Source: Mesorhizobium sp. 113-3-3
GTDB lineage: Bacteria > Pseudomonadota > Alphaproteobacteria > Rhizobiales > Rhizobiaceae
DNA length: 64,000 nt
Assembly (NCBI RefSeq): GCF_016756495.1
Contig: NZ_AP023243.1
Location: forward strand, 2,608,501-2,672,500
Reading direction: 5' to 3'
Shown: in pieces, positions 651 through 5,743 of the stretch
Position numbering within the stretch: position 1 is the stretch's first letter
Layout: each line of letters starts with the position of its first letter
The notes under the pieces: model-generated
The model's database searches: none
What the model saw: the letters and a program-made list of their open reading frames with translations, nothing else
Told to the model about the DNA's origin: nothing
Translations under genes and position numbers: made by a program

Positions 651-691
651 AGAATATTTCAGGTGCAGGTGAGTGCGTTGACGGCTGTCAG
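651..691 (-). promoter_or_regulatory. FNR/FixK-like site and -10 for the BON gene
   Basis: The 14-mer TTGACGGCTGTCAG at 678-691 matches the TTG-N8-CA(A/G) pattern of FNR/FixK-type sites. Read on the minus strand, a TATTCT hexamer (plus 651-656) begins 22 nt past the site. That is the spacing of a class-II FNR promoter, where the site is centred near -41.5. The BON start codon lies 96 bp downstream of the site. Confidence 0.55.
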
Positions 692-720
692 TTTCATTGG
701 TTTGTGGCATTGGGCGTCCA

Positions 721-756
721 GGAAGAAAAAGCTCGCCGCTGTAGGAAGCGGCGGGC
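721..756 (-). terminator. Rho-independent terminator on the minus strand
   Basis: The arms GCTCGCCGCT (731-740) and AGCGGCGGGC (747-756) form a 10-bp stem with one wobble pair and a six-base loop. On the minus strand the stem is followed by TTTTTCTT (complement of 723-730). No protein gene is seen upstream on that strand between here and 1011, so what it terminates is unknown; a small RNA is one option. Confidence 0.6.
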
Positions 757-891
757 AGTGGCCGTTAAGGAGGGGATAGAGGGATCAACCCGCCCGGACA
801 GGAATTCGCTTCATGTCAGCCTGCGTTGGCAGATCTTCGATGCCGACACAGCAATGTTCTATTGATGACGTATCCACATGCTGTGAGCGCA

Positions 892-933
892 TTGATGACC
901 GTCAGTTTGAGGTCGACGGAATTCGGCTAATTC
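892..933 (+). promoter_or_regulatory. cbpA: FNR/FixK-like site and -10 for cbpA
   Basis: TTGATGACCGTCAG at 892-905 repeats the motif seen before the other stress genes. TAATTC at 928-933 sits 23 nt beyond it, the class-II FNR spacing. A transcript would start near 940, which argues for the ATG at 1012 over an upstream in-frame ATG at 937. Confidence 0.55.
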
Positions 934-1011
934 CTGTTGGCGTTCCGATGCAATCGGATGGCCTTCACCTCCGGGGCGCTCGCAAAAAAGGGGGGGCCGG
1001 CGGAAATCCCA

Positions 1012-2972: not shown

Positions 2973-4884
2973 GGCGCTGTCCGTCCTGGTCATCGATCTC
3001 CTCGAACTCCGCGTCGACGACATCGTCGCCGGACGAAGCATGTGACGGTTCTTGCGCCGCTGACGAGGCCGCGCCGGCGGTCGCTTCATGCACCTTGGCG
3101 CCAAAGTTCACTGAAGCGATCTGCAGCGCCTTCGTCTTTGCTTCGATCTCGTCCAACGATTCCCCGGCCATTGCCGACTTGAGATCCCCGATAGCCTTTT
3201 CGACGGGAGTCTTGTCTACGGTCGCAGCCTTGTCCTTCGCCTCGTCGATCGCCCTCTGGCTGGTGCCAATCTGCGCATCCGCCTGGTTGCGTGCTTCAAC
3301 CAAGGCGCGTCTTTTCTTGTCGGCCTCCGCATTTGCCTCGGCTTCCTTCACCATTCGATCGATATCCGACTGCGACAGTCCGCCGGACGCCTGGATCTTG
3401 ATCTGTTGCTCCTTGCCGGTCGCCATATCCTTGGCGGTGACGTTGACGATGCCGTTCGCATCGATATCAAAGGTTACCTCGATCTGCGGTACGCCGCGTG
3501 GCGCCGATGGGATGCCGACGAGGTCAAATTGGCCGAGCAGCTTGTTGTCGGCAGCCATTTCGCGCTCGCCCTGGAAAACGCGGATGGTGACGGCGCTCTG
3601 GTTGTCCTCGGCCGTCGAGAACGTCTGGCTCTTTTTAGCGGGAATGGTCGTGTTGCGCTCGATCAACCGGGTGAACACGCCGCCGAGCGTCTCAATGCCG
3701 AGCGACAACGGCGTCACGTCAAGCAGCAGCACATCCTTGACGTCGCCCTGCAGCACGCCGGCCTGGATGGCAGCGCCGATCGCGACCACTTCGTCCGGGT
3801 TGACGCTCTTGTTCGGCTCCTTGCCGAAGATTTCGGCGACGGTCTCCTGCACCTTGGGCATGCGCGTCATGCCGCCAACGACAATCGCCTCGTCGATGTT
3901 ATCCGGCTTGACCTTGGCGTCCTTCATTGCGTCCTTGCAGGGTTTCTCCGTCCGACGGATCAGATCGTCGACCAGATCCTCCAGCTTGGCGCGCCTCAAC
4001 TTGATCTCAAGATGCTTCGGTCCGTTCTGGTCGGCCGTGATGAAGGGCAGGCTGACGGTCGTTTCGAGTGATGAGGAAAGCTCGATCTTGGCTTTTTCGG
4101 CGGCCTCACGAAGGCGCTGAACTGCAAGCCGGTCGTTGCGAAGATCGATGCCCTGCTCCTTCTTGAATTCCTCGGCCAGCCAGTCGACGATCCGCTTGTC
4201 GAAATCCTCTCCACCAAGAAACGTGTCACCGTTGGTCGCCTTGACCTCGAAGACGCCATCGCCGATATCGAGGAGCGAGATGTCGAAGGTGCCGCCGCCG
4301 AGATCGTAGACCGCGATCGTTCCAGCCTTTTTCTTTTCGAGACCGTAGGCGAGGGCAGCGGCTGTAGGCTCGTTTATGATGCGCAGCACGTCGAGCCCCG
4401 CAATCTTCCCGGCGTCCTTTGTCGCCTGCCGCTGGCTGTCGTTGAAATAGGCCGGCACGGTGATAACTGCCTGGCTGACCGTCTCGCCGAGATAGGCTTC
4501 TGCCGTCTCCTTCATCTTCACCAGCACATAGGAGCTGATCTGGCCCGGACTGTACTTCTTGCCAGCAACCTCAACCCAGGCGTCGCCATTGTCGCCCTTG
4601 ACGATCTTGTAGGGGACGAGCTTCTTGTCCTTCTCCACGACCGGATCGTCGTAGCGGCGGCCGATCAGACGCTTGATGGCGAAGAGCGTATTTTCGGGAT
4701 TGGTCACGGCCTGGCGCTTGGCAGGCTGACCGACCAGGATTTCCCCGCTCTTGGTGAACGCCACGACGGAGGGGGTTGTGCGCCCGCCTTCAGCGTTCTC
4801 GATGACCTTGGCCTGCGTGCCTTCCATTACCGCGACGCAGGAGTTGGTCGTTCCAAGATCGATACCGATCACTTTGCCTGCCAT
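2965..4884 (-). CDS. dnaK: Hsp70 chaperone DnaK
   Basis: This full-length 639-residue Hsp70 shows [16 protein letters not shown] at the start of the ATPase domain, the second phosphate motif [17 protein letters not shown], the hydrophobic linker [15 protein letters not shown] and the substrate-binding domain. It ends with a DAEFEEIDD tail followed by eight extra residues. GGAGG lies 6 nt before the ATG at 4884. The gene heads a dnaK-grpE unit with an FNR-like site 89 bp upstream. With CbpA and GrpE beside it the cycle is complete. The standard dnaK-dnaJ operon is presumably elsewhere, making this a second copy; that is inference. Confidence 0.97.
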
Positions 4885-4943
4885 CTCAGCCTCCGTCTAG
4901 ATTTGTCGTCCGGCACCAGCGTGACTGCCGCGCCTTCATCCAG

Positions 4944-4986
4944 ATTCTTGCCAGTCGTGTCGGATGTCGGCCTTGACGATCGTCAG
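4944..4986 (-). promoter_or_regulatory. dnaK: FNR/FixK-like site and candidate -10 for dnaK
   Basis: TTGACGATCGTCAG at 4973-4986 contains the perfect 12-bp palindrome TGACGATCGTCA (4974-4985). Downstream on the minus strand an AAGAAT hexamer (plus 4944-4949) lies 24 nt from the site, close to class-II spacing. The site overlaps the stop codon of the preceding stress gene, so dnaK-grpE may have its own promoter as well as read-through. Confidence 0.5.
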
Positions 4987-5651
4987 TTTCGGATGCGGTT
5001 TTGCTCGGTGTGCGCCAACGGTTCGCCGCCGAGCCACGGGTCGGGTTTGAATTTCGAGAGCGGCAGGTCGTCCAGCCGCTTGTCGATTTCAATTTCGTGC
5101 ACGCGGATTCCCTCGCCACCGAACTTTGCCAGTATGTCCTGTGCTTCGGTCTCTCTTTCGGGGTTGCGCACGCGCACCCACAGGACGATGCCGCCTGACA
5201 TAAGCTGCAGTTCCAAGTCTTCGGCCTGCTTCCTTCCAAGCAGGTGTATGGCCGTCGCGCCGAATCCCGCGCCGACGGTCCCGGCTGCGACTGCTGCAGC
5301 GGCGACGAGCGCCAGGCTGCCCCCCGAGGCGATCACGCTCATAGCGGCGCTTGCAGCGCCCAGATAGAACAGAATGCCGGCGACGCCGGCGGTCGCGGTC
5401 GTGATATCGTCGCGGGCGATATAGGCGCGCCGCGGCGTTCCTGGAACGTCGGCGATTTCGTCAGACGGCACATAAACTGAGCCCAGTCGCTTCCGAACGG
5501 TTTCGATATCGCCCATGACGTCGATATCACCGCGGTCGAACCCGGCTTGGAGCAATGCCTCGATTGCGTTTTCCAGTGTTTCCTGGCTCTGGAAGACCGC
5601 TGCCACCTCCCGGACCTTGTGTTGTGCGATGACATTGTCGTTTGGATCCAT
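4983..5651 (-). CDS. General-stress-type membrane-associated protein
   Basis: This 222-residue protein is of unknown biochemical role. The N-terminal domain (about residues 10-60) has the FQSQETLENAIEALLQAGF pattern seen in YflT-like general stress domains. A long Ala/Gly-rich hydrophobic stretch (about residues 88-145) can span a membrane twice, and a second alpha/beta segment ends in KFGGEGIRVHEIEI. ATG at 5651 with GGGAG 7-8 nt upstream is preferred to an in-frame TTG at 5666. It precedes dnaK on the same strand and has its own copy of the motif, so it probably acts in the same stress response. No enzyme motif is visible. Confidence 0.75.
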   Translation of the reverse strand: MDPNDNVIAQHKVREVAAVFQSQETLENAIEALLQAGFDRGDIDVMGDIETVRKRLGSVYVPSDEIADVPGTPRRAYIARDDITTATAGVAGILFYLGAASAAMSVIASGGSLALVAAAAVAAGTVGAGFGATAIHLLGRKQAEDLELQLMSGGIVLWVRVRNPERETEAQDILAKFGGEGIRVHEIEIDKRLDDLPLSKFKPDPWLGGEPLAHTEQNRIRN

Positions 5652-5729
5652 GGCGGCGTCTCCCAATCAATCGGCGGACTGCCGAGTAAAACTAGCGAAC
5701 GAGATTCCGGCAGCAGCGCGCGGCGCGCT

Positions 5730-5743
5730 TTGACGGTCGTCAT
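5730..5743 (-). promoter_or_regulatory. FNR/FixK-like site upstream of the stress protein gene
   Basis: TTGACGGTCGTCAT is the fourth copy of the motif in the island and sits 79 bp before the ATG at 5651. The -10 candidate at the expected distance (GAATCT on the minus strand) is poor. Confidence 0.45.

Follow-up and report, generated by a model that had tools for sequence, protein, structure and literature searches.

DnaK is the textbook heat-shock protein, placed under the control of RpoH or HrcA. The described system with which the present locus is most readily compared is the FixLJ-FixK (FixK2) cascade of Bradyrhizobium and Sinorhizobium. The locus is an island that reaches into a stretch of 64,000 nucleotides of Mesorhizobium sp. 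113-3-3 (NZ_AP023243.1, positions 2,608,501 to 2,672,500; G000:C1:2608501-2672500 in a genome of 7.73 Mb), referred to below as the window, in which genes for a second DnaK and its partners, preceded by sites of the FNR/FixK type, lie beside the gene of a FixK-like regulator. With FixLJ-FixK it shares a FixL-type kinase core, a FixJ-type response regulator, a FixJ-like box, class-II promoter spacing, and a FixK-type protein that lacks the N-terminal FeS cysteines. It differs in that it is predicted to act on chaperone and stress-protein genes, in a sensor half that gives no match to the haem PAS domain of FixL, in an ETVCR recognition helix with the predicted operator YTGACGNNCGTCAR, and in the fusion of sensor and helix-turn-helix (HTH) domain into a one-component protein at several island loci.

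A sequence-only reading of this DNA had judged chaperones under an FNR-type factor to be unusual, a judgement tempered by precedents for FNR-type control of stress proteins in the available excerpts of three papers. RLV_1399 of Rhizobium leguminosarum, a small heat-shock protein, is there described as dependent on FnrN (PMC11784457); like the island genes, it is a rhizobial chaperone under an FNR-family activator, but it is one small heat-shock protein under a global oxygen regulator, whereas the island combines an entire set of DnaK, GrpE, and CbpA with a linked regulator specific to its clade. UspA figures in predicted FNR regulons in the excerpt of PMC2908626. The lxa cluster of Burkholderia cenocepacia resembles the island in grouping heat-shock, BON, and universal stress protein genes for which a regulator of the CRP family was proposed, and differs in that this regulator, BCAM0049, is described in the excerpted text as Anr-like and homologous to B. 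dolosa FixK (PMC6127331). The transmissible locus of stress tolerance (tLST) is likewise, in the excerpts available, an island of stress-tolerance genes that has spread horizontally. Control of dnaK or cbpA by a regulator of the FixK type was not described in the titles and abstract openings of the open-licence papers that the searches listed.

Comparison of sequences makes it very probable that the FixK-like regulator uses these sites as its operators, within a horizontally spread cascade from a FixJ-like to a FixK-like protein that would activate the second chaperone set. The comparison shows the sites and how they are spaced, that they are conserved together with the regulator, how dnaK2 differs from the ordinary dnaK, and that FixJ-type genes are linked; from this we infer binding, activation, the succession of steps in the cascade, and its signal. 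In the proposed sequence of events, the signal of a dedicated sensor would reach a FixJ-type DNA-binding domain by way of a histidine kinase and response regulator or by direct fusion, and the FixJ-type protein, acting at a FixJ-like box, would switch on the gene for the FixK-like protein. A dimer of the FixK-like protein would then bind YTGACG-NN-CGTCAR centred near -41 and, by class-II contact, activate some ten island promoters, those of dnaK2-grpE, cbpA-cbpM, and the genes for BON, PRC-barrel, aldo/keto reductase, thioredoxin-reductase-like, UvrA-like, and other proteins; the second chaperone set would thus leave RpoH control. Sites, -10-like hexamers, and regulator gene within the window are the following.

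678-691, no strand assigned: FNR/FixK-type site of the BON gene, TTGACGGCTGTCAG (sequence match)
892-905, no strand assigned: FNR/FixK-type site of cbpA, TTGATGACCGTCAG (sequence match)
4973-4986, no strand assigned: FNR/FixK-type site of dnaK2, TTGACGATCGTCAG (sequence match)
5730-5743, no strand assigned: FNR/FixK-type site of the stress gene, TTGACGGTCGTCAT (sequence match)
651-656, minus strand: -10-like TATTCT, 21 nt past the BON site (sequence)
928-933, plus strand: -10-like TAATTC, 22 nt past the cbpA site (-10 scoring)
4944-4949, minus strand: -10-like AAGAAT, 23 nt past the dnaK2 site (-10 scoring)
5702-5707, minus strand: weak -10-like GAATCT, 22 nt past the stress-gene site (-10 scoring)
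6155-6829, minus strand: FixK-like regulator with ETVCR recognition helix and Cys 109, 164, and 196 (Pfam, structure-relative match, alignment)

All four 14-mers of the sequence-only reading were recovered at these positions, and the distances of 79-107 bp to the start codons that it gave correspond to measured gaps of 95 nt (BON), 106 nt (cbpA), 88 nt (dnaK), and 78 nt (stress gene). Its view of an FNR/FixK regulon next to the regulator stands, as the sites recur together with the regulator gene; its restriction to four sites does not, as the island extends leftward and carries ten intact TGAY-N4-RTCA cores, every one of them intergenic, within the 26.3 kb that end at the regulator gene. Six of the ten fall to the left of the window, up to about 15 kb away. 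In 100 first-order resampled sequences, the core occurred in 26.3 kb with a mean of 1.6 and a maximum of 6, and the stricter form in which one TTGA arm or both are complete, of which there are also ten, with a mean of 0.49 and a maximum of 3; the neighbouring 77 kb hold nine cores, and four with one full TTGA arm. In the window itself, TTGAYN4GTCA with at most one mismatch occurs 29 times against 16.8 expected, a count reached by none of 100 shuffles. The sequence TTGAYGRYCGTCA has nine exact strand-wise matches genome-wide, five of which, representing four distinct sites, lie within the island. Regulon members scattered elsewhere in the genome were considered and set aside, since all four exact matches to TTGAYGRYCGTCA beyond the island are intragenic; one-mismatch and other TTGAYGNNCRTCAA matches were examined in part.

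Conservation was followed over eight loci that carry the regulator (G000, the present genome; G425, G375, G209, G786, G641, G757, and G672), each gene being scored only at loci in which a homologue could be identified. The core precedes dnaK2 in 7/7, cbpA in 6/6, and the BON gene in 7/7, and is also found before the genes for PRC (3/3) and ABM (2/2) proteins, the aldo/keto reductase (3/4), the hypothetical protein 2601 (2/3), and the oxidoreductase with a cNMP-binding domain (1/1). At these loci, none was found upstream of MEDS (0/2) or GAF (0/2) genes, the kinase or sensor gene (0/7), the response regulator (0/3), or the regulator itself (0/8). In Sinorhizobium fredii NGR234, the core stands before dnaK2 (90% identical), cbpA (83%), BON (87%), aldo/keto reductase (84%), and PRC (73%) genes, and also before the regulator gene. 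Autoregulation was set aside for G000, whose regulator gene has no upstream site, NGR234 being alone among the loci in having one. Additional sites occur in G425 before DUF1931, Bax1-I, PRC, ferritin-like, PsiE, DUF1269, and Usp genes. Among control genes, 17/185 have a core upstream, a count that is biased upward because many of the stretches had been chosen for holding sites.

The ordinary dnaK genes of regulator-bearing hosts offer a second control, from which G375 is omitted, its second copy not having been found: none of six has a site within 300 bp, even at two mismatches. An RpoH-like promoter precedes five of these six and 0/7 of the island dnaK genes, and no match to CIRCE (controlling inverted repeat of chaperone expression) with up to four mismatches was found in the 300 bp upstream of 13 dnaK genes. 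For dnaK2 this agrees with the earlier suggestion of chaperone genes under an FNR-type factor instead of sigma-32 or HrcA, the core being present at 7/7 dnaK2 genes. In genus members without the regulator, cbpA has no site at one mismatch in five genes, the start of a sixth not having been located.

When -10-like hexamers were scored by distance from the site with a matrix made for the present analysis, in 49 island promoters from nine loci (a fiftieth was excluded as its direction is unclear), a single sharp peak appeared at 22 nt. The peak persists in the ten promoters of G000 alone and in 24 promoters representing about one per gene family, and there the observed mean was reached by 0/2000 shuffles. 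This spacing fits a class-II promoter of an FNR-type activator, in which the site lies about 22 nt before the -10 element. The geometry proposed by the sequence-only reading is consequently upheld, with its distances corrected: 22-23 nt, and one base further at dnaK, had been given where 21, 22, and 23 nt are measured.

The regulator itself, called FixK-like in the sequence-only reading, belongs to the Crp/FNR superfamily, with Pfam PF00027 (cNMP_binding) and PF13545 (HTH_Crp_2) above cut-off; among proteins of solved structure, FixK2 is its best match (E 3.9e-32). Its recognition helix reads E-T-V-C-R at residues 193-197. Cysteines occur at 109, 164, and 196 only, and the N-terminal cluster of the FNR/FnrN type is absent; the host FnrN-like protein, by contrast, has Cys 16, 19, 27, 115, and 240. 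The nine closest proteins, from the eight genomes and NGR234, form a clade with support 95/96, all nine having the ETVCR helix together with a CYP motif in the sensor half, and in the midpoint-rooted tree canonical FixK lies outside this separate clade on a long branch. The host FixK-like protein and two FnrN-like paralogues have ETVSR; ETVCR is not unique to the clade, as it is also found in two more distant proteins of G599. In the alignment to FixK2, the cysteine of the helix occupies the position of a serine that adjoins an arginine, and the position of FixK2 Cys183 is a serine. The arginine is presumably DNA-contacting, and we take the serine at the equivalent position of FNR to contact the outermost base of the operator.

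The regulator of this clade has a modified predicted operator, YTGACG-NN-CGTCAR, as judged against 14 intergenic FNR/FixK sites drawn from 6.18-6.23 Mb of the same genome only. Position 6 is G in 17/20 island half-sites and 9/28 canonical ones, and position 5 is C in 14/20 and 9/28, respectively. Measured against the FNR/FixK operator TTGA(C/T)-N4-(A/G)TCAA, the core is intact in 10/10 sites of G000, with the outer base departing from TTGA in 7/10, as compared to 1/14 canonical sites. In the clade as a whole the outer base departs in 35/42 sites, against 4/12 for the ETVSR relatives of Azospirillum, G1089, and G960 (p 0.0017); the 42 sites were hand-picked for a plausible target, and of the 15 further intact-core matches left out in those loci, 14 likewise have the outer base off. 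The pairing of a changed helix with a changed operator offers a natural test of how specificity evolves in the FNR family and of insulation from the host FNR/FixK regulon. The canonical sites form a separate cluster at C1:6183721-6232886 (L007-L009), to which also belong a FixK gene with a 15/16 FixJ box and the gene for an FnrN-like protein that bears cysteines in its N-terminal part.

Input to the regulator would come from FixJ-like proteins. At the left end of the island in G000, the sensor has a kinase core similar to that of FixL (E 1.6e-76), and the response regulator that accompanies it resembles FixJ (E 2.2e-49); of 13 loci searched, 12 encode a FixJ-type DNA-binding domain. The arrangement varies: a kinase with a FixJ-type regulator in G000, G425, G786, G1089, and G960; a kinase-less fusion of a related sensor half to a FixJ-type HTH in G375, G672, G641, G757, and NGR234; and a PAS-receiver-HTH protein at two Azospirillum loci. 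The sensor half is thus seen joined either to a FixL-type kinase or directly to a FixJ-type DNA-binding domain (L050:773-1864, L059 about 15052-16134, and L006:1244-2947). Upstream of the regulator gene lie two elements.

6922-6937, minus strand: FixJ-like box, 12/16 to the published S. meliloti site
6909-6923, minus strand: element ATAMGGDGAWTCCMC

The reference FixJ site is that given in the available excerpt of PMC4999443. The box reaches 13/16 in G425, where 0/200 shuffles were as good, and 12/16 in G000 (1/200); as a positive control, the canonical fixK of the host has a box of 15/16. The element ATAMGGDGAWTCCMC, whose pattern was composed after inspecting the sequences, is found with at most three mismatches at -89 to -101 from the regulator start in 7/8 loci. 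A general similarity scan of distant regulator promoters placed most pairs no higher than shuffles.

By analogy alone, low oxygen would be a plausible signal for the island. The sequence-only reading had gone further and spoken of a low-oxygen or redox chaperone response, for which no support emerged, as the regulator is devoid of the N-terminal cysteine motif and no resemblance to a haem PAS could be detected in the linked FixL-like sensor: in a single-sequence search of limited sensitivity with residues 1-320 of the sensor of G000, no FixL haem PAS was among the five matches to E 10. On the whole, the observation behind that reading is confirmed, while its interpretation is supported in part, being right at its core, too narrow in scope, and unproven as to the signal.

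A number of results weigh against a FixJ-like to FixK-like cascade acting on these sites. The core precedes only some of the homologues of the stress gene (2/4), DUF308 (2/4), and the UvrA-like gene (1/2) at regulator-bearing loci, and none of those of DsbA (0/4) or FMN reductase (0/2). In the one-mismatch site test, dnaK2 passes in 6/7, the core of G757 having both outer bases off, and cbpA of regulator-bearing genus members in 2/3, with the same departure in G375. Four of the 12 sites of ETVSR relatives are also off at the outer base, which weakens the contrast with the ETVCR clade. The G000 promoter at 2601127 scores poorly at 22 nt, and that of BON is one base off. As for the input, no FixJ-type domain was found near the regulator in G209, and in G000 some 23 kb separate the regulator gene from the FixJ/FixL-like genes. 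The FixJ-like box is borderline at 11/16 in G375 (14/200 shuffles) and G757 (8/200), and matches in G786, G641, G209, and NGR234 (9-10/16) are no better than shuffles. Finally, the host has further FNR-type proteins, with seven other matches, that could bind TTGAC/T sites.

The last point leads to the alternative that the sites belong to the ordinary low-oxygen FnrN/FixK regulon of the host, the adjoining regulator being incidental or minor. The half-site TTGA(C/T) is indeed that of FNR/FixK, and the host genes include one for an FnrN-like protein whose N-terminal part bears cysteines and one for a FixK with its own FixJ box, in addition to the canonical site cluster at 6.18-6.23 Mb. The island operator, however, departs at positions 1, 5, and 6, and in different families the sites go together with the island regulator; ordinary dnaK genes lack them, as do five cbpA genes from relatives without the regulator. 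This alternative is quite improbable. That the matches arose by chance in a GC-rich genome is hardly credible: TTGAYN4RTCAA occurs 44 times genome-wide, so that single sites are not rare, but ten were found where 0.49 were expected, with conservation in other families and a fixed distance to the -10 element.

A different possibility is that the FixK-like protein is governed less by its synthesis than by a thiol-redox switch at Cys196, or that it acts as a repressor of the island. The cysteine is present in 9/9 clade members, where the host FixK-like protein and two FnrN-like paralogues have serine. FixK2 of B. diazoefficiens is controlled by oxidation of a cysteine, albeit a different one, C183, which is serine in the island protein (available excerpt of PMC9104804). 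Repression agrees poorly with a -10 element at 22 nt, which is the geometry of an activator; the ETVCR helix is shared by two relatives from a single genome that fall outside the clade, and redox and synthesis control can coexist. This alternative is regarded as unlikely. A wider proposal would join several of these elements in a self-contained mobile regulatory cassette, in which a GAF/PAS-like sensor, coupled interchangeably to a FixJ-type domain through kinase and receiver or by fusion, drives a FixK subfamily with its own operator, the cysteine relaxing the outermost contact and also acting as a thiol switch, so that the second DnaK system would come under a redox or oxygen signal unreadable by the RpoH system. 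Taken as a whole, this proposal is speculative and unlikely.

Orthologues of the regulator are rare. With the own genome included in each count, they were found in 3/146 genomes of the genus and 2/297 of the family sample (both E <= 1e-40), in 11/397 of the order sample (E <= 1e-36), five of which, again including the own genome, have at least 56% identity, and in 4/385 of the class sample (E <= 1e-42). Plasmid pNGR234b of S. fredii NGR234 carries an orthologue with 63% identity, and plasmids of Azospirillum carry relatives with about 51%. DnaK2 of G000 is 74% identical to the ordinary DnaK of its host and 83-96% identical to six island DnaKs elsewhere; the ordinary DnaKs of regulator-bearing hosts are 70-75% identical to it. 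The identities of the island DnaKs, together with the scattered distribution and the plasmid copies, argue for horizontal spread of the island. A tRNA at the island edge was considered as a mark of mobility and not retained, there being one tRNA-Met about 3 kb to the left; no integrase search was made. A second, apparently horizontally shared DnaK/GrpE/CbpA set thus carries conserved predicted FixK-type operators across several families, and the presence of the well-studied NGR234 among the carriers provides a system in which to ask which signal demands extra folding capacity outside heat shock. A related regulator lies on a plasmid of Azospirillum brasilense (L060), in a large cluster with ClpB, DnaK, Hsp20, CbpA/CbpM, TrxC, DegQ, DsbA, and a universal stress protein.

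The remaining genes of the island within the window are listed below.

1-582 (ATG at 582), minus strand: BON-domain protein (Pfam PF04972), continuing leftward outside the window to -71
1012-1923 (ATG at 1012), plus strand: CbpA-type DnaJ co-chaperone (Pfam DnaJ, DnaJ_C)
1924-2286, plus strand: CbpM-like MerR-type protein, immediately 3' of cbpA (Pfam MerR_2)
2412-2993, minus strand: GrpE, overlapping the 3' end of dnaK2 (Pfam PF01025)
2965-4884 (ATG at 4884), minus strand: DnaK2, the second DnaK (Pfam and protein comparison)
4983-5651 (ATG at 5651), minus strand: putative membrane stress protein, without a Pfam assignment above cut-off

The gene in the position of the CbpM-like one is annotated CbpM at the Azospirillum locus. 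To the left of the window, the island continues with genes for a FixJ-like response regulator, a PAS histidine kinase, and GAF, MEDS, and UvrA-like proteins, and for FMN reductase, an HWE kinase, PRC-barrel, ABM, DsbA-like, and DUF308 proteins, and aldo/keto reductase. The UvrA-like ABC protein (860 aa, L006:5162-7744) has an FNR-type site upstream, and its sole counterpart among the loci (G786, 72%) has none. A pyridine-nucleotide-disulphide oxidoreductase, read as thioredoxin-reductase-like, is fused to a cNMP-binding domain at L006:8007-9734, and its gene is preceded by a perfect TTGACGGTCGTCAA site.

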